From an uncultured Pelagibacteraceae bacterium (GTDB taxonomy: Bacteria > Pseudomonadota > Alphaproteobacteria > Pelagibacterales > AG-422-B15), in the NCBI GenBank assembly GCA_902610585.1, contig CACLWE010000001.1:46970-110969 (forward strand): 64,000 nt of DNA. The letters are read 5' to 3'. The notes beneath the pieces are model-generated. The model was not told the origin of the DNA. It made no database searches and saw nothing but the letters and a program-made list of their open reading frames with translations. A program made the position numbers and the translations under genes. Below are positions 28,600 through 49,705 of the stretch, in pieces; position 1 is the first letter of the stretch; every line of letters begins with the position of its first letter.

Positions 28600-29772
28600 A
28601 TGAGTGAAGTATTTATTACATCTGCCGTTAGAACAGCCGTTGGTTCTTTTAATGGATCTTTATCGGGTATGCCAGCACACGATTTAGGTACAATAGTTAT
28701 AAAAGAAACGCTTAATAGATCAGGCATTGAAGGTGGTGATGTAGATGAGGTGATACTTGGACAAGTACTAACTGCAGCAACCGGTCAAAACCCTGCTAGA
28801 CAAGCATCAATAAATGCTGGTTTAAATAAAGAAACCCCAGCATGGCTAGTTAATCAAGTTTGTGGATCTGGCTTACGAAGTGTTGCTTTGGCCTACCAAT
28901 CTATAATGAATGGCGATGCAAATATTATTATTGCTGGTGGACAAGAAAGTATGAGTCAATCCCCGCACTGTATGCACCTAAGAAATGGTACCAAAATGGG
29001 CGATGATAAGATGATCGACTCAATGATCAAAGATGGTTTGTGGGATGCTTTTAATGGATATCACATGGGAACAACTGCTGAAAATGTTGCACAACAATGG
29101 CAAATTACTAGAGATCAACAAGATGAATTTGCTTTTAACTCACAACAGAAAGCAAGTAAAGCTAAAGCAGATGGAGTATTTAAGGATGAAATTGTTCCAG
29201 TTGAAGTCCCATCAAGAAAAGAGACAGTAGTTTTTGATAGTGATGAATATATTAAAGACAATGTTCAATTAGAAAAAATTTCATCTTTAAGACCTGCATT
29301 TGCAAAAGAGGGAACAGTTACAGCGGCAAATGCAAGTGGTATAAACGATGGCGCAGCTGCTTTGGCAGTAATGTCCTCAGATGAAATGAAAAAAAGAAAC
29401 CTTGAGCCTATGGCAAGAATTGTATCGTGGTCAAGTGCTGGGGTTGATCCATCTGTGATGGGTACAGGACCTATACCTGCAAGCAGAAAAGCTCTTGATA
29501 AAGCAGGGTGGGATGTTTCTGATTTAGATTTAATTGAGTCAAATGAAGCATTTGCCGCTCAATCTTGTGCAGTAAATAAAGAAATGGGATGGGATGTTTC
29601 AAAAGTGAATGTTAATGGGGGAGCGATTGCCATAGGACATCCAATTGGTGCGTCAGGAGCTAGAATTCTTGTAACATTATTAAATCAAATGAAAAGACAG
29701 GACGCTAAAAAAGGACTTGCCACATTATGCATTGGTGGCGGTATGGGTGTCGCTTTGTGCGTCGAACGATAG
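28600..29772 (+). CDS. phaA: Acetyl-CoA acetyltransferase (beta-ketothiolase)
   Basis: This 390-residue thiolase condenses two acetyl-CoA to acetoacetyl-CoA. The acyl-binding Cys88 is in NQVCGSGLRSVAL, His347 in GGAIAIGHPIGASGAR and Cys377 in CIGGGMGVALC. AAGGGAAAG gives a good ribosome site. It is followed by phaB after 9 bases, so acetoacetyl-CoA goes to (R)-3-hydroxybutyryl-CoA. A PHB synthase gene is not in the window. The pair can also feed the ethylmalonyl-CoA pathway, whose signature genes lie at 43.5-48.5 kb. Confidence 0.97.
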   Translation: MSEVFITSAVRTAVGSFNGSLSGMPAHDLGTIVIKETLNRSGIEGGDVDEVILGQVLTAATGQNPARQASINAGLNKETPAWLVNQVCGSGLRSVALAYQSIMNGDANIIIAGGQESMSQSPHCMHLRNGTKMGDDKMIDSMIKDGLWDAFNGYHMGTTAENVAQQWQITRDQQDEFAFNSQQKASKAKADGVFKDEIVPVEVPSRKETVVFDSDEYIKDNVQLEKISSLRPAFAKEGTVTAANASGINDGAAALAVMSSDEMKKRNLEPMARIVSWSSAGVDPSVMGTGPIPASRKALDKAGWDVSDLDLIESNEAFAAQSCAVNKEMGWDVSKVNVNGGAIAIGHPIGASGARILVTLLNQMKRQDAKKGLATLCIGGGMGVALCVER

Positions 29773-29781
29773 GAGAAAATT

Positions 29782-30504
29782 ATGTCTAAAGTAGCATTAG
29801 TAACTGGAGGAACAAGAGGAATAGGTGCTGCAATATCTCTTGCTTTAAAAAAGGAGGGGTGCAATGTTGCTGCAACCTATAGTTCAAATTCAGATGCAGC
29901 AAATAAGTTTTCATCCGAAAACGGTATTGAGGTATTTCAATGGAATGTTGCCGATGCAGCTGCATGTGAAGCGGGCGTAAAGCAAGTTGCTGATAAGCTG
30001 GGCACTGTTGACATTTTAGTGAATAATGCCGGCATTTCCAAAGCTTCAATGGCTCATAAAATGTCAGTTGAACAATGGGATGATGTAATAAGAACTGACT
30101 TAGATTCAGTTTTTTATATGACAAGATGTGTACTTGAAGGCATGAGAGAAAAATCTTTTGGAAGAATAATCAGCATTTCTTCTATTAACGGTCAAAAAGG
30201 TGAGATGGGTCTAATAAATTATAGTGCGGCAAAAGCTGGTTTATTAGGTTTTACCAAAGCATTAGCGCAAGAAACTGCTAGAAAGAATATTACAGTTAAC
30301 GCTATTGCACCTGGCTATATCGATACTGAAATTCTAGCGGATGCCTCCGAGGATTTTATGAAAAGTTTAATTGGAAAAATTCCTGTAGGAAGACTTGGAA
30401 CAGTTGATGAGGTTTCACGAATAGTTACATTCCTTGCTAGTGATGAAGCGGGCTTTATAACAGGTTCTACGATATCTGCAAACGGTGGACAATATTTTAC
30501 TTAA
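29782..30504 (+). CDS. phaB: Acetoacetyl-CoA reductase
   Basis: This 240-residue short-chain dehydrogenase of the PhaB type reduces acetoacetyl-CoA to (R)-3-hydroxybutyryl-CoA with NADPH. It has the cofactor motif TGGTRGIGAAIS (residues 8-19), NNAGISKASMAHKM, the catalytic Ser in ISISSINGQKGEMG and Tyr147/Lys151 in NYSAAKAG. An AGGAGA ribosome site lies 7 bases ahead of the ATG. FabG-like ketoacyl reductases are close relatives, but pairing with phaA favours PhaB. It overlaps the convergent gloB end by four bases. Confidence 0.94.
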   Translation: MSKVALVTGGTRGIGAAISLALKKEGCNVAATYSSNSDAANKFSSENGIEVFQWNVADAAACEAGVKQVADKLGTVDILVNNAGISKASMAHKMSVEQWDDVIRTDLDSVFYMTRCVLEGMREKSFGRIISISSINGQKGEMGLINYSAAKAGLLGFTKALAQETARKNITVNAIAPGYIDTEILADASEDFMKSLIGKIPVGRLGTVDEVSRIVTFLASDEAGFITGSTISANGGQYFT

Positions 30505-31261: not shown

Positions 31262-31873
31262 TTAATCCTTTGAAACTAAAAAAAGTCCGACTTCATTAAA
31301 GTAGCTATCAAGAAAATTTTTTCCACTAAAATTGGAAAGTTTTTTATTAGAAAGATCACCTTTCTTTTCAATTTTGATTTCTAACTCCTCACATAAATCA
31401 ATAAAATCATTAATTGTACAAAAATGTAGATTTGGAGTTTCATGCCATGAATAACTTAGTTTCTTGCTTACTGGCATTTTTCTATTCAACAATAAACTAG
31501 CCCCAATCTTCCAGTGGCCAAAATTCGGAAAGGATATAATTGCTTTTTTAGAAATTCTAACCAATTGCTGCATTACTGTTTTAGGACTTTTTGTAGCTTG
31601 TAAAGTGTAAGTAAGTATTGAATAATCAAATAACTTATCTGGATAATCATACAAATCAGTATCTGCATCTCCTTCAATTACTGAAATGCCTTTGGCTAAA
31701 CAAAGCTGAACCTTTTTTTGATCAATTTCCATCCCGCGACCATCAATATTTTTATACTCTCTCAAATACTCCAACAAAGACCCATCATTGCACCCAACAT
31801 CAATAACAGAAGCATTGTTAGGAATTAGCTCAGCAATTACACCAAAATCTTTGTTCTCGTTTATTAAGCTCAT
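31262..31873 (-). CDS. metW: Methionine biosynthesis protein MetW
   Basis: This 203-residue methyltransferase-fold protein is the standard partner of MetX. The SAM-type fold is seen in VIDVGCNDGSLLEYL (about 19-33), then GMEIDQKKVQLC and the conserved SFPNFGHWKIGASLLLNRKMP. MetW is needed for full MetX activity in several bacteria. Its ATG overlaps the metX stop by four bases, and the pair is controlled by the upstream SAM-II element. Confidence 0.96.
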   Translation of the reverse strand: MSLINENKDFGVIAELIPNNASVIDVGCNDGSLLEYLREYKNIDGRGMEIDQKKVQLCLAKGISVIEGDADTDLYDYPDKLFDYSILTYTLQATKSPKTVMQQLVRISKKAIISFPNFGHWKIGASLLLNRKMPVSKKLSYSWHETPNLHFCTINDFIDLCEELEIKIEKKGDLSNKKLSNFSGKNFLDSYFNEVGLFLVSKD

Positions 31874-32985
31874 AAATTTTCAAATGTTGAATTAATGAAT
31901 CCTTTTATCGCCTCAAAAAACTTTGGTTCATCCAATAGGAATGAGTCATGACCGTTTTCAGTTTCAATTTCAATAAAACTGACATTAAGCCCAAGAGAAT
32001 TGAAAACTTTTACAATTTTTTTGTTTTCAGATGTTGGGTATAGCCAATCACTGGTAAATGACACACAAAGAATTTTAGATTGCGTATTTTTAAAGGCCTC
32101 TATTAAGGAGCCATTATTTGCTGAGGAAACATCAAAATAATCCATTGCTCGAGTGATATACAGATAGCTGTTTGCATCAAAGCGATCAACAAAAGTAAAT
32201 CCTTGATGTCTTAAGTAACTTTCAATTTGAAAATCGGCATCAAAAGAATAATCCAAGCTATTTTTATCTTGGAGATTTCTTCCAAACTTACTTTGTAGAG
32301 CTTCTTTAGATAGATATGAAATATGTGCTGCCATTCTAGCTACTGAAAGCCCTTTCATGGGTTTTTTATCAGAATGATAGTAATTTCCTGATTGCCAGTT
32401 TGGATCAGCCATTATGGACTGCCTTGCAAGCTCATTTAATGCAATGTTTTGAGCCGAATGGTTTGTTGCAGTTGCAATAGGAACTGCTGAATGTACCATT
32501 TCAGGAAACTTTGAAAGCCATTCGAGTACCAACATGCCCCCCATCGATCCGCCAGTAACACAGAATATTTTCTCAATTCCCAAATAATCAATTAATAATT
32601 TTTGAGCTCTGACCATATCTGCAATTGTAATTACAGGAAAATCAGTCGCGAATTCTTTACCGTTTTCAGGATTTATTTCTTTTGGACCCGTTGATCCCAT
32701 GCACCCACCAATAACATTAGGGCAAATGACGAAGAACTTGTTCGTATCAATTGGTTTATCGGGCCCTACAACCATCGACCACCAGCCATTTTTTTTTGTA
32801 ATGGGATGATCACTTGCCACATATTGATCGCCAGTCAAGGCATGACAAACCAAGATTGAATTATTTTTTTTATCGTTAAGTTTGCCATATGTTGTATATG
32901 CAGTTTTAAATTTAGATAAACTTCCACCTCCATCCAAATTTAATGGTTCATCTTCTGCTAAAGTAACAATTTTATTTTCACTCAT
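31870..32985 (-). CDS. metX: Homoserine O-acyltransferase MetX
   Basis: This 371-residue alpha/beta hydrolase-fold enzyme acylates homoserine to enter methionine synthesis. The nucleophile Ser147 is in CVTGGSMGGMLVLEW, the acid is in SFTSDWLYP and the histidine in ENGHDSFLLDEP. GGCMGSTGPKEINP is the family loop. Sequence alone does not settle acetyl- versus succinyl-CoA use. I set the start at ATG 32985 (MSENKIVTLAEDEP). An earlier in-frame TTG at 33015 would place the N-terminus in the attenuator stem and add non-family residues. Confidence 0.96.
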   Translation of the reverse strand: MSENKIVTLAEDEPLNLDGGGSLSKFKTAYTTYGKLNDKKNNSILVCHALTGDQYVASDHPITKKNGWWSMVVGPDKPIDTNKFFVICPNVIGGCMGSTGPKEINPENGKEFATDFPVITIADMVRAQKLLIDYLGIEKIFCVTGGSMGGMLVLEWLSKFPEMVHSAVPIATATNHSAQNIALNELARQSIMADPNWQSGNYYHSDKKPMKGLSVARMAAHISYLSKEALQSKFGRNLQDKNSLDYSFDADFQIESYLRHQGFTFVDRFDANSYLYITRAMDYFDVSSANNGSLIEAFKNTQSKILCVSFTSDWLYPTSENKKIVKVFNSLGLNVSFIEIETENGHDSFLLDEPKFFEAIKGFINSTFENL

Positions 32986-33000
32986 AATTTTTTCCAAAAA

Positions 33001-33031
33001 AAAACCGCCCAACAACTAAGTTTGGCGGTTT
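33001..33031 (-). terminator. Intrinsic attenuator terminator between SAM-II aptamer and metX
   Basis: Read on the minus strand, AAACCGCC (33031-33024) pairs perfectly with GGCGGTTT (33009-33002) around a 14-base loop and runs into about nine U residues ending near 32996. It sits 5-6 bases downstream of the SAM-II aptamer and 10 bases upstream of the metX ATG, so it is an attenuator that would stop transcription when SAM is bound. I could not pick out the competing anti-terminator with confidence. Confidence 0.88.
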
Positions 33032-33036
33032 CAACT

Positions 33037-33091
33037 ACCTCTTTAGCTGCATTTTTATTGCGCCCGCAAGCTGTGCTCAAATCGGCGCAAT
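33037..33091 (-). promoter_or_regulatory. SAM-II riboswitch upstream of metX-metW
   Basis: On the minus strand the stem ATTGCGCC / GGCGCAAT closes a loop that starts GATTTGA and ends CTTGC. It is followed by the A-rich linker and TGCAGCTAAAGAGG, which pairs back as a pseudoknot in this class. These match the SAM-II core (GCGC stem, GAUUU, then AUAAA-UGUAGCUAAA-AGG) that alphaproteobacteria carry in front of metA/metX. It lies between a strong promoter and a terminator hairpin, the expected arrangement for SAM-dependent repression of methionine synthesis. Confidence 0.88.
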
Positions 33092-33097
33092 TCATGT

Positions 33098-33124
33098 ATT
33101 ATATATTCAATAGGATATTGTCAA
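33098..33124 (-). promoter_or_regulatory. Sigma70-type promoter for the metX-metW transcript
   Basis: On the minus strand TTGACA (33124-33119) and TATAAT (33103-33098) are both perfect consensus hexamers, separated by 15 bases, a little short of the usual 17. The transcript would begin near 33091, right at the first base of the SAM-II stem. Confidence 0.65.
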
Positions 33125-40966: not shown

Positions 40967-41896
40967 TTATAAGGCTTGTTCTAATTCGGGAAGAACTTGA
41001 AACAAGTCTGCTACCAAACCATAGTCTGCCACATCAAATATAGGTGCTTCTTCATCTTTATTTATGGCAACTATAATTTTTGAGTCTTTCATGCCAGCCA
41101 AGTGCTGGATCGCTCCAGATATTCCGACCGCTATGTACAGTTCGGGTGCTACAACTTTACCAGTTTGTCCGACTTGATAATCATTTGGAACAAAGCCTGC
41201 ATCAACGGCAGCTCGAGATGCTCCAACAGCAGCTCCAAGTTTTTCGGCAACTTTATCTAAAAGTTCAAAGTTTTCTCCATTTTGCATTCCACGTCCACCT
41301 GAAATAATTGTCTTTGCAGAAGTAAGTTCTGGCCTATCAGATTTTGTTAGCTCTTCGCCCACAAATTCTGAAATTGATGGAATATTCTCAGCATTTATCT
41401 TTGCAACCTCGCATTCAGCAGAGTCAGTTGTTGCAGCTTTGAAAGCAGTTGGTCTAACCGTGAGAACTTTCTTTGCGTCAGATGTTTGTACAGTTGCAAT
41501 AGCGTTACCAGCATAAATTGTTCTAATAAATGTATCTGCACTTTCAACAGCAACGATCTCCGATATTTGAGAGACATCAAGTTTTGCAGCAAGTCTAGGC
41601 ATCACATTTTTACCAGTTGTTGTTGCTGCAGCCAAAAAGTAGTCATAATCGCCGGCAATATTAAAAATAACTTGAGTAAGTTTTTCAGCCAAAACATTAT
41701 CAAATGCTGCATCATCCAAGTGGAGTAATTTACTCAATCCATTAATTTTTGAAGCCTCCGCAACAGCTTCATCAATATTTGAGCCCACAATAAGTCCGTG
41801 AACATCGCCTTCAATTTGAGACGCTGCTGTTATAGCTTTTAAACTTTGATCGCTGACCTTTCCGTTTGCATGCTCGATATAAAAAAGTGATGTCAT
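40967..41896 (-). CDS. etfA: Electron transfer flavoprotein alpha subunit
   Basis: This 309-residue subunit has the N-terminal adenine-nucleotide-like domain and the C-terminal FAD-binding domain with [53 protein letters not shown] and [20 protein letters not shown]. It carries electrons from acyl-CoA dehydrogenases to the ubiquinone pool. It overlaps etfB by four bases. Its placement a few genes from methylsuccinyl-CoA dehydrogenase identifies a likely electron donor. Confidence 0.97.
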
Positions 41897-42642
41897 ATAA
41901 CTCCTGCCTCATTTTTTAATTTTTCTACAAGATCTCCAACATTCTCGACTTTGACTCCAGCCTGACGCTTTGGAGGTTCAATAACTTTTAAAATACTTAC
42001 TCTAGGTGTAACATCAACTCCATAGTCTTCAGGAGATTTTTGATCAATTGGCTTCTTTTTTGCTTTCATTATATTGGGTAGAGAAGCATACCTAGGTTCA
42101 TTCAATCTTAAATCGGTGGTAATAATAGCGGGCATATTCAGATTTACAGTTTGTAAACCTCCATCTATTTCTCTGGTGACTTTAACCTTGTCGCCGTCGA
42201 TTTCAACTTTTGAAGCAAAAGTTCCTTGAGGCATATCTGTTAGTGCAGCAAGCATCTGACCAGTTTGATTGTTATCTCCATCAATCGCTTGCTTTCCGGA
42301 TATCACTAGTCCAGGTGACTCGCTTTCACAAATTTTTGCTAGAATTTTTGCAATTGAAATAGGCTCAACTTTTTCTTCTGTGAGCACATGTATTCCTCGG
42401 TCAGCTCCCATTGCAAGAGCCGTTCGAATAGTTTCTTGACAAGATTGATTGCCGATTGAAACAGCGATGATCTCTTCAGCTTTACCAGCTTCTTTTAATC
42501 TAATTGCCTCTTCAACTGCAATTTCACAAAAGGGGTTCATAGACATTTTTACATTCTCAGTTTCAACACCAGTTTGATCAGATTTAACTCTGATGTTAAC
42601 GTACGGATCAATAACTCTTTTGACAGGGACTAAAATTTTCAT
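41893..42642 (-). CDS. etfB: Electron transfer flavoprotein beta subunit
   Basis: This 249-residue subunit binds AMP and supports FAD in EtfA. It has [64 protein letters not shown] and the docking-region [22 protein letters not shown] near residue 190. The overlap with etfA shows coupled translation. The gene starts 43 bases downstream of the cobalamin adenosyltransferase stop. Confidence 0.97.
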
Positions 42643-42685
42643 GATTTATGTGTTATAATATCTTTTTTAGTTGAGTAAACATAAA

Positions 42686-43249
42686 TTATACATTCTTACC
42701 AGGTTTCCACAAAATATCTTTTTTGCCATTGTTGTTTTCAACTCTCGATAAAACAAAAAATAAATCAGATAACCGATTGATATATTTAATTGCTTCTTCG
42801 TTGACCTCTTCTTTTTTTGCAAGCGCGACAATCTGAGTTTCAGCTCGGCGCGTTACAGTTCTTGCGTTGTGTAAAAATGCCGCAGATTGAGACCCTCCCG
42901 GTAGCACAAAAGAATTAAGGGGTGCTAACTTTGCGTTATATTTGTCAATTGTTTTTTCAATTCTTGTAACCTGCTTGCTTGTAACGCGTAGCGGTTTATA
43001 TTTTGGTTTTTTTTCAACTGGAGTTGCGAGATCAGCACCTAAATCAAATAAGTCATTTTGTATTTCTGAAATTATTTTTTTCAGAGATGATTTTGCACTC
43101 GTGTTTAAAATTCCAAGTATAGAATTCAGTTCATCGACAGTCCCGTATGCTTTTATTCTTATATTATCCTTAAATACACGTTTGCCAGATACTAGCCCTG
43201 TCTTGCCTTTATCACCGGCCCTTGTATAAATTTTATTGAGTTTTACCAT
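42686..43249 (-). CDS. pduO: Cob(I)alamin adenosyltransferase, PduO type
   Basis: This 187-residue ATP:cob(I)alamin adenosyltransferase makes coenzyme B12. It has TRAGDKGKTGLVSGKRV at the N-terminus (ATP site), AYGTVDELNSILG, then FVLPGGSQSAAFLHNARTVTRRAE and INRLSDLFFVLSRVEN. The adenosylcobalamin it produces is the cofactor of the neighbouring ethylmalonyl-CoA mutase. It overlaps the HIG1-type gene by one base. Confidence 0.95.
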   Translation of the reverse strand: MVKLNKIYTRAGDKGKTGLVSGKRVFKDNIRIKAYGTVDELNSILGILNTSAKSSLKKIISEIQNDLFDLGADLATPVEKKPKYKPLRVTSKQVTRIEKTIDKYNAKLAPLNSFVLPGGSQSAAFLHNARTVTRRAETQIVALAKKEEVNEEAIKYINRLSDLFFVLSRVENNNGKKDILWKPGKNV

Positions 43250-43452
43250 TAAGAACTAGTTGAAAAGTAAAGAGCACTCATAATTATTACAATCGCAATA
43301 AACTGCAGAGTAATTCTAAGTCTCATAAGTTTATTTGAGTACTTTTTATTAAAATCTCCACCTTTAAACATAGCGTAAATACCTGTTCCTAAAACCGCTA
43401 AAACAGCAAGAAGTGATACAGGAATTAATAAGTAATATAAAAAACCTGGCAT
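43249..43452 (-). CDS. HIG1-type twin-transmembrane small protein
   Basis: This 67-residue protein has two membrane helices (about residues 6-30 and 46-64) separated by a basic loop with MFKGGDFNKKYSNKLMRLRI. That pattern is the hypoxia-induced-gene-1 (HIG1) domain found as a small twin-membrane protein in alphaproteobacteria. In mitochondria HIG1 proteins assist respiratory supercomplexes. Bacterial function is not settled. It overlaps the adenosyltransferase gene by one base and sits six bases after mcd, so it is probably co-transcribed. Confidence 0.88.
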   Translation of the reverse strand: MPGFLYYLLIPVSLLAVLAVLGTGIYAMFKGGDFNKKYSNKLMRLRITLQFIAIVIIMSALYFSTSS

Positions 43453-43458
43453 ATAAAA

Positions 43459-45114
43459 TTAAGCAGGGTTCGTAGAAACAAGTCGACGTGTTACAATGTC
43501 GGCCTGTATCTCTGCAGTTCCTTCAAATATATTTAAAATTCTGGAGTCACATAAAATTCTACTTATTGGATACTCAAGCGCAAACCCATTACCTCCATGA
43601 ATTTGGACTCCGTTATCTGCGCATGCCCAAGCAACTCTAGCAGCCAACATTTTTGCCATTCCTGCTTCCAAATCACATCTGTGTCCTTTATCTTTTTCTC
43701 TTGCAGCATAATAAGTTAATTGTCTTGCAGCCATAATCTCAGTAGCCATAGAAACAATTTTAGATGCATTTCTAGGTTTGTCATACAGCGAACCGCCATT
43801 TGTATCTAGCCTATCTATTGCGTATTGCATTGCAGTTTCAAAAGCTGATTGTGCTACACCCAGTGCTCTAGCTGCAGTCTGTATACGAGCTGCTTCAAAA
43901 GTTTCCATCATTTGTTTGAAGCCATTTCCTTCTTTTTCACCAAGTAAATTTTCTTTTTTAACTTTAAAGCCGTCAAAAGCCATTTCGTACTCTTTCATAC
44001 CTCTGTACCCTAAAACCTCGATTTCTCCACCACTAATTCCCTCATCAGGGAACATATTATCGTCATCGCCCCTCTGTTTTTCAGCAAGGAACATTGATAA
44101 ACCTTTGTAGCCTTTTTCATCAGGGTTTGTGCGTGCTAATAACATCATCACGTCACTTCGAGCTCCATGTGTAACCCATGTCTTGTTTCCTGTGATTGTA
44201 TAGTGCTCTCCATTTGCAACTGCCCTTGTTTTGAATGAGCCCATATCAGATCCTGAATGAGGTTCGGTTAAAACAGCACATGGAAGCATTTCACCAGATG
44301 CAATTTTCGGTAAATATTTATTTTTCTGTTCTTCGGTGCCACCTGTAATCAATAATTCGGCAGCTATATCGCCGCGTGTACCAAGTGAGCCAATGCCAAT
44401 ATAACCCCTTGCAAGTTCCTCAGTTACCACACAGTCAACAAATCTTGTCATTCCAAGTCCACCGTATTCTTCAGGTATCGTCAGACCAAATACACCAAGT
44501 TCAGACATTTTTTCAATTACAGACATCGGAATAAGGTTATCTTTAAGATGCCATTCATGAGCGTTTGGCGTCACATCATCTTCAACAAATTTTCTAAATT
44601 GTTCTTGAATTATTGATGTAGTTTCATCTAGGCCGCTATTACCAAAGTTTTTACTTGAAAATCCATCTTTTAATAATTGAGCAAGTTTCATGCGATCTGC
44701 AGTACTATTGCCATTCAAAATCAGATCATTAAATTCTTCGGTCCCTGTTTCTTGAAAGAGACCATTTTTTAATCCTAAATCTTGAGGACGAACATACTCA
44801 AGTTGTGACATTGGTATCCCAGATTTAATTTGCGCACAGTATTCCGAAAAAGTAATTTGCAAAATTAATTGCTCTGTTTCATTAAACGTCCCTGTCGAGT
44901 CTAGGTTTGAGGCCCAATTAACCATTTCTTTCAAAGTAGCTCTATATGCAGCAACCCAAGATAAGCCATGTGCAGCATGTTGTTCCCTATCTAGATTATC
45001 ACGAGACAATTTTCCATTAACAATTAACTCACCTCTTACATGTTGCAGGGCAGCATCGTAATACTTATCGACAGTAATAAGGGATTTTTGACATTTAGAA
45101 ATTAGTTCGTGCAT
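43459..45114 (-). CDS. mcd: Methylsuccinyl-CoA dehydrogenase
   Basis: This 551-residue acyl-CoA dehydrogenase has an N-terminal extension of about 150 residues and is close in length to the roughly 547-residue Mcd of Rhodobacter. FAD-binding and catalytic segments are LTIPEEYGGLGMTRFVDC, CAVLTEPHSGSDMGSFKT, NGFKQMMETFEAARIQTAARALG and the C-terminal HGGNGFALEYPISRILCD with NIFEGTAEIQ. It oxidises (2S)-methylsuccinyl-CoA to mesaconyl-CoA in the ethylmalonyl-CoA pathway and passes electrons to ETF. Position between ccr and the adenosyltransferase supports this over a fatty acid role. Confidence 0.9.
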   Translation of the reverse strand: MHELISKCQKSLITVDKYYDAALQHVRGELIVNGKLSRDNLDREQHAAHGLSWVAAYRATLKEMVNWASNLDSTGTFNETEQLILQITFSEYCAQIKSGIPMSQLEYVRPQDLGLKNGLFQETGTEEFNDLILNGNSTADRMKLAQLLKDGFSSKNFGNSGLDETTSIIQEQFRKFVEDDVTPNAHEWHLKDNLIPMSVIEKMSELGVFGLTIPEEYGGLGMTRFVDCVVTEELARGYIGIGSLGTRGDIAAELLITGGTEEQKNKYLPKIASGEMLPCAVLTEPHSGSDMGSFKTRAVANGEHYTITGNKTWVTHGARSDVMMLLARTNPDEKGYKGLSMFLAEKQRGDDDNMFPDEGISGGEIEVLGYRGMKEYEMAFDGFKVKKENLLGEKEGNGFKQMMETFEAARIQTAARALGVAQSAFETAMQYAIDRLDTNGGSLYDKPRNASKIVSMATEIMAARQLTYYAAREKDKGHRCDLEAGMAKMLAARVAWACADNGVQIHGGNGFALEYPISRILCDSRILNIFEGTAEIQADIVTRRLVSTNPA

Positions 45115-45124
45115 ATTTAACTTT

Positions 45125-46360
45125 CTAGTTTAGAGATTTTTGTCCTTCTTTTGCGGCGCCAACAAGGACAGCCATATTTCCACCTTTATGTTCATTGTTA
45201 AGCATCTTTTCATGAGCATCAGGAATATTGTTCCATGCAAAAAGCTCTGACATACAAGGATCTAATGTACCGTCAATAACAAGTTCATTCGCTGCATTCG
45301 CTTGCTTTGAATTTCCAAAGTGTGAACCCTGAAGTCTTTTACTTTGCATCCATAGATATCTAGCATCTAATGTGAGATTATATCCTGTGGTACCAGCACA
45401 AATAACAACCATTCCTCCTGGTTTTACTACAAAACATGAAACAGGAACGGTAGTTTCGCCCGGATGCTCAAATACCATGTCAACATTATTACCCTTACCT
45501 GTAAATTCCCATAAGGCCTTTCCAAATTTTCTAACTTCTTTCATATAGTTTGCATATGTTTCAGCGTCATCAATATCAGGATGTTCACCCCAACAATCAA
45601 AATCTTTTCTGTTTAGAACACCTACAGCTCCAAGATCTTTTACATAATCAATTTTAGAGTTATCAGATACAATACCAATTGGTTTAGCACCAACAATTTT
45701 TGCAAGTTGTACTGCCATGCTTCCAAGACCACCCGATGCGCCCCATATTAAAACAAACTCACCTGGCTTTAATTCATTTGGAGCGTGGCCAAATAGCATT
45801 CTATATGCAGTTGCAAGAGTTAACATATAACAGCCACTTTCTTCCCAAGATAAATTTGGTGGCTTACGTAAAACTTGGTGCGCTTGAACAGCTGTGAATT
45901 GAGCAAAGGTCCCATCTGCTGTTTCGTAACCAAAGACCTTATTTGTTTTTGATATCATTGGTTCACCACCATTAACCTCAGCATCCTCATGATCCCACTG
46001 CATACCATGAATGATTACCTCGTCGCCCACTTTCCATTTTTTTACACCAGAACCAACTTTCCAAACTATCCCAGAACAATCAGAACCGGCGATGTGATAA
46101 TCTTTTTTAGTCATATCAAGCGTAGATACAGGTTTTCCAAGGCCAGCCCAAACACCGTTGTAGTTTACGCCCGCGGCCATTACGAATATTAAAACGTCAT
46201 TGGATCCAACTTCAGGAACATCAAATTCTTCTTCTTTAAATGATTGCATTGGGTTTCCATGACGATCTCTTCTGATTACCCATGCGTGCATTTTCTTAGG
46301 GACAAAACCAAGAGGTGGAATTTCACCTATTGCATAAATATCTTTTTCTTCAGTGGTCAT
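45125..46360 (-). CDS. ccrA: Crotonyl-CoA carboxylase/reductase
   Basis: This 411-residue medium-chain dehydrogenase/reductase carries the Ccr-specific opening IYAIGEIPPLGFVPKKMHAW (about residues 9-28), then AAGVNYNGVWAGLGKPV, the NADPH domain with IWGASGGLGSMAVQLAKIV near 208-225 and ELVIDGTLDPCMSELFAWN. It reductively carboxylates crotonyl-CoA to ethylmalonyl-CoA, the key step of the pathway. A ribosome site AGGAG precedes the start. It is divergent from ecm across 134 bases, and mcd follows after 10 bases. Confidence 0.95.
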   Translation of the reverse strand: MTTEEKDIYAIGEIPPLGFVPKKMHAWVIRRDRHGNPMQSFKEEEFDVPEVGSNDVLIFVMAAGVNYNGVWAGLGKPVSTLDMTKKDYHIAGSDCSGIVWKVGSGVKKWKVGDEVIIHGMQWDHEDAEVNGGEPMISKTNKVFGYETADGTFAQFTAVQAHQVLRKPPNLSWEESGCYMLTLATAYRMLFGHAPNELKPGEFVLIWGASGGLGSMAVQLAKIVGAKPIGIVSDNSKIDYVKDLGAVGVLNRKDFDCWGEHPDIDDAETYANYMKEVRKFGKALWEFTGKGNNVDMVFEHPGETTVPVSCFVVKPGGMVVICAGTTGYNLTLDARYLWMQSKRLQGSHFGNSKQANAANELVIDGTLDPCMSELFAWNNIPDAHEKMLNNEHKGGNMAVLVGAAKEGQKSLN

Positions 46361-46494
46361 AAATCAGCTCCTGTAGTGTAGATTATATAAAACTAATGTT
46401 TCTTTTTTCTAGGTTTATAGCCATTTTAGCTAGATTAGTATATACATTTTAAACAAAAGGATTTAATAAAACCAAAAAAAAACGTTGAAAAACA
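46361..46494. promoter_or_regulatory. Divergent control region between ccrA and ecm
   Basis: This 134-base AT-rich stretch must drive ccr leftward and ecm rightward. A TATAAT-like hexamer for ccr lies at 46387-46382 on the minus strand, but I find no convincing -35 partner. TATACA at 46441-46446 is a weak candidate for ecm. An imperfect inverted repeat TAGC-N7-GCTA at 46418-46432 could be an operator, but it is short enough to be chance in such composition. Confidence 0.35.
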
Positions 46495-48450
46495 ATGGAT
46501 AAACCTTGGCTCATAAGAACTTACGCAGGACATTCGTCTGCCAAAAAGTCAAATGAACTCTATCTTAAGAACTTATCAAAGGGTCAAACAGGTATCTCAG
46601 TAGCCTTCGATTTACCTACTCAAACTGGGTATGACAGTGATCACATTCTCGCTAAAGGGGAGGTTGGCAAAGTTGGCGTTCCAATCTGTCATATTGGCGA
46701 TATGAGATCGCTCTTTAATCAAATTCCATTAGATAAAATGAATACATCAATGACCATTAATGCTACGGCTGCATGGTTGCTGAGTTTATATGTAGCCGTT
46801 GCAGATGAACAGGGCATAGACAGAAATAAATTACGGGGAACAACTCAAAACGATGTTTTAAAAGAATATCTCTCAAGAGGAACATATATTTTTCCACCTG
46901 ACCCAAGTTTAAAAATAATATCTGACGTGATTACTTTTACTTTTAAAGAAATGCCAAATTGGAATCCAATCAATGTATGTCCTTACCATTTAGTTGAAGT
47001 AGGTGCAACTCCTGAGCAGGAATTAGCTTTTGGTCTTTCAATTGCAGTTGCGTATCTCGATAAAGTCAAAACCTCAAATGTGTTATCAGAGGAAGAATTT
47101 GAAAATGTAGTAGGTCGCATAAGCTTCTTCGTTAATTCTGGAATCAAATTTATTACTGAGATGTGTAAAATGAGAGCATTTGTATCTTTGTGGAATGAAA
47201 TTACAAAAGAGAGATATGGTGTTAAGGATCCTAAAAACAGAAGATTTAGGTATGGCATGCAAGTAAACAGTCTTGGATTAACTGAGCAACAACCTGAAAA
47301 CAACGTATATAGAATATTAATTGAAATGCTAGGTGTCGTGCTCTCAAAAGATGCAAGAGCAAGAGCAGTTCAGTTACCAGCTTGGAATGAAGCAATGGGA
47401 TTGCCAAGACCATGGGATCAACAATGGTCCTTAAGATTACAACAAATTGTTGCGTATGAAACAGATCTTCTACATTTTGACGATATATTCAATGGCTCTG
47501 AAGTAATTGATGAAAAGGTTAAAAATCTTAAAGAGACTGCGATGAAAGAATTTAATCACATTCAATCAATTGGTGGTGCAGTAGCCGCAGTTGAAAGTGG
47601 TTACTTAAAACAGGAATTGGTCAATTCTCAAAAAGAAAGGCTAAAAAGAATTAATGATAAAGAGCAAATCGTTGTTGGAGTTAATGAGTTTGTTGAGACT
47701 GAAGAGTCACCTCTTGTATCAAATGATGGAGGCATAGAAACAATTGATCCAAAAATTGAAAATGAACAAGTAAAAGCAGTTATTGATTGGAGACAAAACA
47801 GAGATCAAAAACAGGTTGATAGCGCTTTAAATCAATTAAGCGAAGCAGCAAAATCTGGAGAAAACATAATGGAAGCTTCTATTACAGCTGCAAAAGCAGG
47901 TGTAACAACAGGTGAATGGTCTCAAATACTTCGGGATGTTTTTGGTGAGTTCAAAGCACCGACTGGTATAACTAATATTCAACCATCCAATAATGACGAT
48001 TACAGCCCAATACGTAAAAGAGTTGAGTCATTGTCAGATAAGATGGGAAGAAGAATTAAATTTCTTGTAGGTAAACCTGGCCTTGACGGACATTCTAGTG
48101 GAGCTGAACAAATTGCTGTAAGTGCGAGTGATTGTGGAATGGATGTTTTGTACGAAGGAATTAGATTAACACCAGAACAAATAGTAAAATCATCTGTTGA
48201 AGAAGATGTGCACATCATCGGACTTTCTATTCTATCTGGTTCTCATGTGCAGCTTGTCGAGGAAATTATGAATGAAATGAAAAAAAATAAAGTAGATGAT
48301 ATCCCGGTAATTGTAGGAGGTATAATTCCAACAGAAGATGAAAAGATCTTAATTAAAAATGGAGTTCAAGCAGTTTATACTCCAAAGGATTATCAGCTGA
48401 AAGATATAATGAGTGACATTGTGAGCATTGTTGAGAGAAAAGTATCTTAA
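46495..48450 (+). CDS. ecm: Ethylmalonyl-CoA mutase (B12-dependent)
   Basis: This 651-residue mutase rearranges ethylmalonyl-CoA to methylsuccinyl-CoA. The N-terminal barrel has WLIRTYAGHSSAKKSNELY, QTGISVAFDLPTQTGYDSDH, the substrate loop and RYGMQVNSLGLTEQQPENN. The C-terminal cobalamin domain carries GLDGHSSGAEQ (DxHxxG, with His533 as the lower B12 ligand) and SGSHVQLVEEIM. Length and N-terminus are those of Ecm rather than the two-part methylmalonyl-CoA mutase. An in-frame TGA at 46486 fixes the start at 46495. It overlaps the esterase gene by one base. Confidence 0.95.
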   Translation: MDKPWLIRTYAGHSSAKKSNELYLKNLSKGQTGISVAFDLPTQTGYDSDHILAKGEVGKVGVPICHIGDMRSLFNQIPLDKMNTSMTINATAAWLLSLYVAVADEQGIDRNKLRGTTQNDVLKEYLSRGTYIFPPDPSLKIISDVITFTFKEMPNWNPINVCPYHLVEVGATPEQELAFGLSIAVAYLDKVKTSNVLSEEEFENVVGRISFFVNSGIKFITEMCKMRAFVSLWNEITKERYGVKDPKNRRFRYGMQVNSLGLTEQQPENNVYRILIEMLGVVLSKDARARAVQLPAWNEAMGLPRPWDQQWSLRLQQIVAYETDLLHFDDIFNGSEVIDEKVKNLKETAMKEFNHIQSIGGAVAAVESGYLKQELVNSQKERLKRINDKEQIVVGVNEFVETEESPLVSNDGGIETIDPKIENEQVKAVIDWRQNRDQKQVDSALNQLSEAAKSGENIMEASITAAKAGVTTGEWSQILRDVFGEFKAPTGITNIQPSNNDDYSPIRKRVESLSDKMGRRIKFLVGKPGLDGHSSGAEQIAVSASDCGMDVLYEGIRLTPEQIVKSSVEEDVHIIGLSILSGSHVQLVEEIMNEMKKNKVDDIPVIVGGIIPTEDEKILIKNGVQAVYTPKDYQLKDIMSDIVSIVERKVS

Positions 48451-49103
48451 TGCCAATCTTAAGTGGACCAGTTTTAGAACCTCAAGACTCTTCAAAGCCA
48501 TCAAAACTTGTAATATTTTGTCATGGATACGGCGCAGATGGCAATGATCTGATTGGCCTTGCTAATTATATTCAGCCTCAAATGCCCGATGCAGTTTTTT
48601 TATCACCTAATGCACCTGAAAAATGTGGATTAAACCCAATGGGATATCAATGGTTTGATTTTCAATCGGGTGATCCTGCAACTATTTGGAAAGGTGTGTT
48701 AAATGCAGCTGATACACTTAATGGTTATATTGATGAACAACTTAAGAATTATGAGTTAAGTGATGATAATTTGGCGCTCGTAGGTTTTAGTCAAGGCACA
48801 ATGATGAGTTTACATGTCGGCCTTAGAAGAGAAAATTCAATGAGAGCAATTGTTGGCTTTTCAGGAAGGTTAATTGCTCCAGAACTTCTTAAAAATGAAT
48901 TAAAGTCAAAACCTCCAATTTATCTAATTCATGGAGATATGGACCCTATGGTTCCTTATCAAGAAACTATTGAAGCTGAAAAAAAATTATCACAATTGAG
49001 TATAGATGTTAAGGCTCATATTTCTACAAACACTCAGCATTCAATTGCTCAAGACGGATTAGATATAGCTATTAAATTCTTAGTCGAAAAGTTCTCAAAT
49101 TAA
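48450..49103 (+). CDS. Phospholipase/carboxylesterase family alpha/beta hydrolase
   Basis: This 217-residue esterase is in the YpfH/carboxylesterase family. KLVIFCHGYGADGNDLIGLA forms the oxyanion region, read as LVIFCHGYGADGNDL, LALVGFSQGTMMSLHVGL holds the nucleophile Ser in GFSQG, IHGDMDPMVPYQET supplies the Asp and THQ-like NTQHSIAQDG the His. Substrates in this family are often unknown. The ATG overlaps the ecm stop, so it is expressed with the mutase; removal of unwanted acyl-CoA or acyl esters is possible but not shown. Confidence 0.9.
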   Translation: MPILSGPVLEPQDSSKPSKLVIFCHGYGADGNDLIGLANYIQPQMPDAVFLSPNAPEKCGLNPMGYQWFDFQSGDPATIWKGVLNAADTLNGYIDEQLKNYELSDDNLALVGFSQGTMMSLHVGLRRENSMRAIVGFSGRLIAPELLKNELKSKPPIYLIHGDMDPMVPYQETIEAEKKLSQLSIDVKAHISTNTQHSIAQDGLDIAIKFLVEKFSN

Positions 49104-49147
49104 AATATTTTTTGAAATATTTATACAATTGAATATATTAATTAATA

Positions 49148-49705
49148 ATGAGTATTGCAGTTCCTTTAGAAAAATGTCCAGCTTTGGTTCTAAATTCAGA
49201 TTTCAGGCCTCTTAGCCATTATCCACTTTCTCTCTGGTGTTGGCAGGATAGCGTAAAAGCTGTTGTTCTTGGAAGGGTAAATATTGTATCAAACTATGAA
49301 AGAGAAATTAGAAGTCCAAGTTTTCAAATGTATTTGCCAAGCGTTATTAGTCTAAAAACGTACATCAAGCCAAATAGAAATCCAATCTTCTCAAGATTTA
49401 ACGTTTTTTTGCGTGATAAGTTTAGTTGTCAATATTGTGGTTCAAAGAAAGATTTAACATTTGATCATCTTATACCTAGATCACACGGCGGTGAAACAAC
49501 TTGGGAAAATATTGTAACAGCATGTTCAAGTTGTAACGTAAAAAAGGGAGGAAAACTTTTGAAAAACTCGGGTATGAAGCCTCTCAATATTCCAAAAGTA
49601 CCTACAATGTCTGATTTAGATAAATGTGGCCGATCTTTTCCTCCTAACTTTTTGCATGAAAGCTGGATGGATTTCTTATATTGGGATATTCAACTAGAAA
49701 GATAA
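49148..49705 (+). CDS. HNH endonuclease domain protein
   Basis: This 185-residue protein belongs to a conserved alphaproteobacterial HNH family. CPALVLNSDFRPLSHYPLSL opens it, then the zinc-HNH core CQYCGSKKDLTFDHLIPRSH, WENIVTACSSCNVKKG and C-terminal MKPLNIPKVPTM. The full HNH set (CxxC, His, Asn, CxxC) is present. Chromosomal genes of this type lie in core regions without mobile partners, so it is probably a cellular DNA-processing or RNA-repair factor. I see no sign of insertion. Confidence 0.92.
   Translation: MSIAVPLEKCPALVLNSDFRPLSHYPLSLWCWQDSVKAVVLGRVNIVSNYEREIRSPSFQMYLPSVISLKTYIKPNRNPIFSRFNVFLRDKFSCQYCGSKKDLTFDHLIPRSHGGETTWENIVTACSSCNVKKGGKLLKNSGMKPLNIPKVPTMSDLDKCGRSFPPNFLHESWMDFLYWDIQLER

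Follow-up and report, generated by a model that had tools for sequence, protein, structure and literature searches.

The window analysed here is a stretch of 64,000 nucleotides (positions 46,970 to 110,969 of contig CACLWE010000001.1) from an uncultured Pelagibacteraceae bacterium. It contains, at 40967-48450, a compact gene island which the original prediction attributed to the ethylmalonyl-CoA pathway. This pathway and the glyoxylate shunt do the same net job, namely the assimilation of acetyl-CoA to malate. The question raised by the locus is whether the bacterium follows the ethylmalonyl-CoA route and, if so, what has become of the shunt. The results suggest the island supplies crotonyl-CoA carboxylase/reductase (Ccr), ethylmalonyl-CoA mutase (Ecm) and (2S)-methylsuccinyl-CoA dehydrogenase (Mcd) to a pathway that has probably taken the place of the glyoxylate shunt in a single SAR11-order (Pelagibacterales) genus, a reading to which we assign a probability of roughly 0.86.

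The window genome comprises 1.21 Mb in 25 contigs, is 77% complete, and belongs to genus g1 of family f1 in this order. The relatives searched were 36 g1 genomes, the window genome included, and 23 genomes of another SAR11-order family, f2, all of which are at least 97% complete. For comparisons of the island, 34 loci with titles naming Pelagibacteraceae or Pelagibacterales (L004-L037), among them those closest to the window's Ecm, are referred to as SAR11-order loci, and 46 other alphaproteobacterial ecm loci constitute the non-SAR11 comparison.

Identity of Ccr, Mcd and Ecm

Ccr is the reductive carboxylase that makes ethylmalonyl-CoA from crotonyl-CoA. Its gene lies on the minus strand at 45125-46360, and the 411-residue product belongs to the family described by TIGR01751 (558 bits, against a cut-off of 379) and matches the solved enzyme 4gi2 with 609 bits. 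The adjoining mcd gene (43459-45114, minus strand) encodes 551 residues, which match the solved enzyme 6es9 with 678 bits over residues 15-546, N-terminal extension included. PMC5798300 describes the roles of the Mcd substrate and catalytic residues: three arginines, an alanine, a catalytic glutamate and a shifted phenylalanine. The equivalents of Arg252, Arg376, Arg421, Ala285 and Glu535 are kept in the window protein, as well as in 31 of 31 SAR11-order rows, one of which has a gap at the Glu535 position.

The ecm gene (46495-48450, plus strand) encodes 651 residues that match PF01642 and PF02310, with a C-terminal B12-binding domain whose DGHSSG motif begins at residue 531. In a tree of 52 Ecm rows taken from tblastn coordinates and three rows of methylmalonyl-CoA mutase (Mcm), the two enzymes are split with a Shimodaira-Hasegawa-like approximate likelihood ratio test (SH-aLRT) value of 100, and the genome's own Mcm falls on the Mcm side. 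The split is also present when 19 of the 52 Ecm loci are left out. Six of the 34 SAR11-order loci were included, and their Ecm rows group together (SH-aLRT 86) in a clade that is not nested in another group. Both assignments of the original prediction are thus supported: the dehydrogenase aligns with Mcd over nearly its full length and keeps the substrate arginines, and the mutase stands apart from the genome's own Mcm.

Glyoxylate shunt and distribution of Ecm

The isocitrate lyase family (PF00463) was found in none of the 36 g1 genomes, the window genome included; this enzyme had been left as a check by the original prediction. All 23 f2 genomes gave some match to this family, 18 of them full-length and five as short related stretches only. 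Malate synthase was likewise found in 0/36 g1 genomes, in contrast to 22/23 f2 genomes. At the listed completeness, a universal gene would go undetected in every one of the 36 g1 genomes with a probability of about 10^-27, if misses are independent. PMC10308909 describes the glyoxylate shunt as a SAR11 hallmark and reports it to be mostly absent from AEGEAN-169, a synonym of SAR11 subclade V. Genus g1 would depart from this hallmark, as neither enzyme of the shunt was found in its 36 genomes.

Among 397 genomes of the order, a search for Ecm with an E-value threshold of 1e-200 found it in 42 of the 53 that belong to f1 and in 0 of the remaining 344. The eleven f1 genomes with no Ecm match are all at most 91% complete, and include both genomes of genus g283 (61% and 54% complete). 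Within g1, 30 of 36 genomes have Ecm, one of them as a fragment.

Remaining steps of the pathway

Mesaconyl-CoA hydratase (Mch) and malyl-CoA lyase, which the original prediction left to the rest of the genome, were both found there, which supports its reading of the island. Mcl1 is a separate gene whose 326-residue product matches the malyl-CoA/beta-methylmalyl-CoA lyase 5ugr with 425 bits; 32 of the 36 g1 genomes have a frame of 328-333 residues for it, and one further genome has a shorter frame. Mch forms the second half of a 652-residue fused protein, described below.

For the steps that lead to Ccr, a phaA-like acetyl-CoA acetyltransferase (28600-29772, plus strand), the first enzyme on the way to crotonyl-CoA, matches TIGR01930 with 487 bits (cut-off 241) and also PF00108 and PF02803, and a phaB-like acetoacetyl-CoA reductase (29782-30504, plus strand) matches TIGR01829 with 322 bits (cut-off 302). 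A candidate for the crotonyl-CoA-forming dehydratase is a MaoC protein, found as a frame of 135-161 residues in 29/36 g1 genomes.

For the steps that follow Mcl1, the ethylmalonyl/methylmalonyl-CoA epimerase exceeds the TIGR03081 cut-off in 27/36 g1 genomes. A pair of the PccB/PccA type lies on contig C17, with a 510-residue carboxyltransferase (PF01039, 639 bits) adjoining a 663-residue protein of the biotin carboxylase type. Two more biotin-type carboxyltransferases are encoded in the window genome (C5:70424-71866 and C6:74188-75612, frames of 548 and 507 residues), and f2 genomes have two weak matches each. Mcm scores 1199 bits against PRK09426 (cut-off 876), is present in 34/36 g1 genomes, and lies with MeaB about 20 kb after ecm.

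The ethylmalonyl-CoA pathway known from Rhodobacter, Methylorubrum and Paracoccus is matched here by homologues of Ccr, Ecm, Mcd, Mch, Mcl1, the epimerase and Mcm, along with an enzyme of the propionyl-CoA carboxylase type. The differences are that the host is here a SAR11-order genus with assemblies of 0.7-1.3 Mb, that CbiC was not detected, and that Mch is fused to a thioesterase-type CitE domain.

A fused CitE-like/mesaconyl-CoA hydratase protein

The fusion gene is one open frame of 652 residues at 36916-38874 of contig C1, about 8 kb before the window, and was assigned from sequence matches to families and to solved proteins. Residues 10-220 form an HpcH/HpaI (CitE-like) domain. Residues 301-651 match 4e3e with 432 bits and 8hgn with 392 bits; the former is labelled a MaoC domain protein dehydratase and is presumably the Chloroflexus mesaconyl-CoA hydratase, and the latter is labelled beta-methylmalyl-CoA dehydratase. 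This half also matches PF19315, the mesaconyl-CoA hydratase family, with 41.8 bits (cut-off 26.5).

A function for the first half was predicted from its active site residues. According to Zarzycki and Kerfeld (PMC3832036), CitE-like enzymes have Asp at position 299 of the Rhodobacter lyase, except for the malyl-CoA thioesterase cluster, which has Glu. On that numbering, Glu occupies the position in all four fusions aligned, which were chosen from 26 loci, and in all six lyases parsed from ten tandem loci described below, and Asp is present in two of two g1 Mcl1 proteins and in one f2 homologue. Arg76, Glu141, Asp168, Glu44 and Asp45 are kept in the aligned fusions, the tandem lyases, the g1 Mcl1 proteins and the f2 homologue. 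Among the fused proteins of the database, 11 were aligned, and every one has this thioesterase Glu (E268). Since Glu at the Asp299 position matches the malyl-CoA thioesterase cluster, the fusion is most likely a mesaconyl-CoA hydratase joined to a malyl-CoA thioesterase. The Rhodobacter sphaeroides malyl-CoA thioesterase and its cluster have the same Glu and keep the Mg-binding and Arg residues, as the fusion does; the domain of the window genome differs in being fused to mesaconyl-CoA hydratase. AlphaFold2, given an 11-row alignment of fused proteins, returned a model with a mean predicted local distance difference test (pLDDT) score of 44, which is too low for use, and the domain identities are therefore taken from the sequence matches.

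The CitE-like domain lies in a long frame in 26 of the 36 g1 genomes; the fusion frame is intact, at 652-654 residues, in 25 of these loci, and a contig end cuts the other. In a survey of 385 genomes of the class, 122 have a match at 1e-100, and 11 matches span both halves, of which only that of the window genome contains no internal stop. The other ten (among 384 class genomes) have one or two stops inside. Among the genomes sampled, the fusion is seen only in genus g1. A protein database search gave 1554 matches, the best 120 of which all have the fused domain set.

In the six of the ten tandem loci that were read, the CitE-like gene directly precedes an unfused mch, with the end of one and the start of the other within 18 codons and in the same frame, as opposed to the single fused frame of the window genome. 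The ten genomes with both parts in one frame suggest the fusion may be descended from such a tandem gene pair. In the hydratase tree, the fusion does not group with the tandem-pair rows; the rows nearest to it come from f25, a family with small genomes in which the hydratase is unfused (SH-aLRT 92). This grouping possibly reflects attraction, as both branches are long and the f25 rows are of unusual composition. Family f25 is alphaproteobacterial, with assemblies of 0.9-1.1 Mb, and its unfused hydratase is found in L199, L202 and L211 (genomes G212, G309 and G387); in a further f25 genome, G081, no hydratase match was obtained at 1e-100.

By eye, the stretch L177:2765-18262 has leuCDB- and asd-like genes before the fusion gene and sdh-, mmsA-, mdh- and sucCD-like genes after it, a neighbourhood of the tricarboxylic acid (TCA) cycle. 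The mmsA-like methylmalonate-semialdehyde dehydrogenase exceeds the cut-off of TIGR01722.

In the known pathway, the hydratase step immediately precedes the pair of reactions carried out by Mcl1, and the thioesterase step immediately follows that pair. We infer that the fusion would couple these two steps.

Supply of B12

Two B12-dependent mutases, Ecm and Mcm, are encoded in g1. As a marker of de novo B12 synthesis, CbiC/CobH was found in 0 of the 59 g1 and f2 genomes, and a control search found it in 7 of 14 reference genomes; B12 is therefore probably imported in g1. A cobalamin riboswitch above the cut-off was found in 29/36 g1 and 0/23 f2 genomes, by a search whose filters lose weak matches. 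On contig C4 of the window genome (L224:7123-10132), the riboswitch directly precedes the gene for a TonB receptor of 751 residues. Next in the row comes a DUF6580 membrane protein, a candidate for uptake of B12 through the inner membrane. The B12 role of the receptor is proposed because of the riboswitch upstream. For the B12 synthesis and uptake genes that the original prediction left as a check, these results make import likely.

Layout and conservation of the island

The remaining genes of the island are on the minus strand: etfA, the electron transfer flavoprotein (ETF) alpha subunit (40967-41896; PF01012 and PF00766 above cut-off); etfB, the beta subunit (41893-42642; PF01012 above cut-off); a PduO-type cob(I)alamin adenosyltransferase (42686-43249; TIGR00636 with 212 bits, cut-off 108, and PF01923); and a 67-residue HIG1/twin transmembrane helix small protein (43249-43452; NF033233 with 77 bits, cut-off 49, and PF04588). 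The two ETF subunits are the predicted electron acceptor side for Mcd, and PduO the predicted source of adenosylcobalamin for Ecm and Mcm. From etfA to ecm, the spacings between neighbours are -4, 43, -1, 6, 10 and 134 bases, etfB overlapping etfA by 4 bases. The single-strand run with gaps of at most 43 bases, and the divergent start of ecm 134 bases from ccr, were correctly described at the outset, as open reading frames, family matches and coordinates agree.

The run is complete in 28 of the 34 SAR11-order loci, and contig ends cut the remaining six inside it; the island proposed from one window is thus stable among its relatives. In eight genomes, picked because all four genes share one contig, the fusion, ecm, mcm and mcl1 follow in the same order, with distances of 55-84 kb, 16-20 kb and 11-13 kb between successive genes.

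Outside the order, ccr, mcd, pduO, etfB and etfA lie on the minus strand upstream of ecm in 8/46 loci, seven of which have a HIG1 match between pduO and mcd, and ccr is upstream of and divergent from ecm in 39/46. Given that eight non-SAR11 loci keep these genes likewise, the island is a compact form of an old, known alphaproteobacterial arrangement and is not peculiar to the window genome. Sneathiella and some other Alphaproteobacteria, in the order ecm/ccr-mcd-hig1-pduO-etfBA, have these five genes on the side of ecm where the window has them, although Sneathiella chinensis has about 2.6 kb of other DNA between hig1 and mcd, where the window gap is 6 bases.

The divergent ccr/ecm intergenic region (46361-46494) was aligned between the window and eight SAR11-order loci. 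In these nine sequences, a T-rich run stands before the core GGTTTATAGCCA and ATTA(G/A)TATAT after it; in the window, the conserved core reads TTCTAGGTTTATAGCCA, followed by ATTAGTATATA. This core may be a control region or regulator site.

After ecm, and overlapping its end by one base, comes a carboxylesterase gene (48450-49103, plus strand; PF02230). Of the 34 SAR11-order loci, two end inside ecm, and the 32 that continue beyond it all have this gene downstream. An HNH endonuclease gene follows (the two span 48450-49705) in 31 of these 32, the exception being L031, with no HNH match. Homologues also occur in several other Alphaproteobacteria, at a distance of some kilobases past ecm. Elsewhere in the window, a SAM-alpha riboswitch (33022-33098, minus strand) lies directly upstream of a gene at 31870-33015 that is metX-like (homoserine acetyltransferase) by eye.

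Alternative explanations

The island and its partners might instead be mainly catabolic, acting on propionyl-CoA, methylsuccinate or branched C5 acids, while the TCA cycle is refilled by another carboxylation. The mmsA-like gene, the carboxylase pair on C17, Mcm and several acyl-CoA dehydrogenases recognised by eye would suit such a role, and other anaplerotic enzymes were outside the searches. Yet the reductive carboxylation of crotonyl-CoA by Ccr would, from general knowledge, be useless in the breakdown of propionate or C5 acids, the window contains both PhaA and PhaB, and neither enzyme of the shunt was found in g1; we regard a mainly catabolic role as quite improbable. That the island is contamination or recently acquired foreign DNA in a single-cell or metagenome assembly is hardly credible. 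The genome is indeed fragmented, in its 25 contigs, and f1 is the only family of the order in which Ecm was found, but this account is contradicted by the same gene order in loci from many assemblies, interrupted only at contig ends, by the order and similar distances of four genes in eight genomes, and by the SAR11-order Ecm rows forming one clade of their own, and was rejected. A Ccr serving polyketide extender-unit supply was rejected, without a search for polyketide genes, on the ground that the other parts of the pathway are mostly there.

A narrower alternative concerns the fusion, whose N-terminal half may be a beta-methylmalyl-CoA or citramalyl-CoA lyase, such that one protein hydrates mesaconyl-CoA and cleaves the product. 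CitE-like family members have catalytic residues in common (PMC3832036), and the nearest NCBIfam models for this half are citE and RipC, both below their cut-offs. However, under the rule of the same source, the Glu of the fusion is the residue of the malyl-CoA thioesterase cluster, other CitE-like enzymes having Asp there, and the genome encodes a standard Mcl1 in a gene of its own. We consider the lyase unlikely, and the preferred assignment is that of hydratase joined to thioesterase.

Several observations weigh against the replacement of the shunt by a complete ethylmalonyl-CoA pathway. The shunt search covered genus g1, the other genera of f1 lying outside it, and the rows of the Ecm tree include no biochemically characterised Ecm. 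In Mcd, Phe287 of the Paracoccus enzyme (the shifted phenylalanine) is replaced by Leu in the window protein and in 27/31 SAR11-order rows, Phe being present in the other four and in 23/23 other rows; the substrate range of Mcd could therefore be slightly different. Two proteins were not found in the window genome, which is 77% complete: the MaoC candidate of about 156 residues for the (R)-3-hydroxybutyryl-CoA dehydratase, and the epimerase, which was found over the cut-off in its relatives. The propionyl-CoA carboxylase step is represented by a candidate pair, which was assigned by size, adjacency and Pfam, and matches no propionyl-CoA carboxylase equivalog, the nearest NCBIfam model being mmdA, below its cut-off. 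In regard to B12, the best equivalog of the TonB receptor is the B12 receptor TIGR01779, but its 93 bits fall far below the cut-off of 600 for BtuB, and riboswitch-like matches that fall short of the cut-off occur in two genomes of f2. CobS/CobT-like cobaltochelatase subunits are encoded beside Mcm and MeaB (L003:10945-13769) in a genome with no detected CbiC; such genes alone do not show B12 synthesis.

Proposed pathway and significance

In the proposed route, PhaA, PhaB and a dehydratase, for which the MaoC protein is a candidate, would lead from two acetyl-CoA to crotonyl-CoA, which Ccr would carboxylate to ethylmalonyl-CoA. Ecm, with adenosylcobalamin made by PduO, would form methylsuccinyl-CoA, and the ETF encoded nearby would take up the electrons from Mcd. 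Beta-methylmalyl-CoA would come from the hydratase half of the fusion, and Mcl1 would split it into propionyl-CoA and glyoxylate. Mcl1 would also condense the glyoxylate with acetyl-CoA, and from the malyl-CoA so formed the thioesterase half of the fusion would release malate. Propionyl-CoA would pass to succinyl-CoA through propionyl-CoA carboxylase, the epimerase and Mcm, and B12 would be imported by the TonB receptor behind the riboswitch. Given the ethylmalonyl-CoA genes and the lack of a detected shunt gene, growth on acetate-like carbon is therefore predicted to depend on imported B12. The ethylmalonyl-CoA pathway also fixes CO2.

A broader proposal, which we rate somewhat above an even chance, is that a SAR11-order lineage (the genus and, by the shared island, probably most of the family) swapped the shunt for the B12-dependent ethylmalonyl-CoA pathway, in part by means of a new bifunctional hydratase/thioesterase whose halves act immediately before and after Mcl1. 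Such an enzyme could keep carbon moving through Mcl1 and tip the reversible condensation towards malate, and the acetate economy of the lineage would be tied to B12 released by other plankton.

The original prediction considered the island notable as a B12-dependent route of acetyl-CoA assimilation. The pathway is supported, but the gene order is old, and the notable points, namely the replaced shunt, the fused enzyme and the likely import of B12, lie outside the coordinates of the island. Each enzyme except the fusion was already known, as was the island order. As far as the searches reach, what is new is the pathway in a SAR11-order genus with no detected shunt, together with the fusion and the dependence on B12 that is predicted here: no report of the ethylmalonyl-CoA pathway in SAR11 or of such a fusion was found in the titles and abstract openings searched, a coverage without most subscription papers and all preprints.

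If the reading is correct, a lineage without the shunt would differ in its carbon economy, its vitamin demand and its links to B12 producers. The fused enzyme would be a simple, testable case of two neighbouring pathway steps merging into one protein in a streamlined genome, and the presence of ecm and ccr could mark B12-dependent growth of this lineage in the sea.

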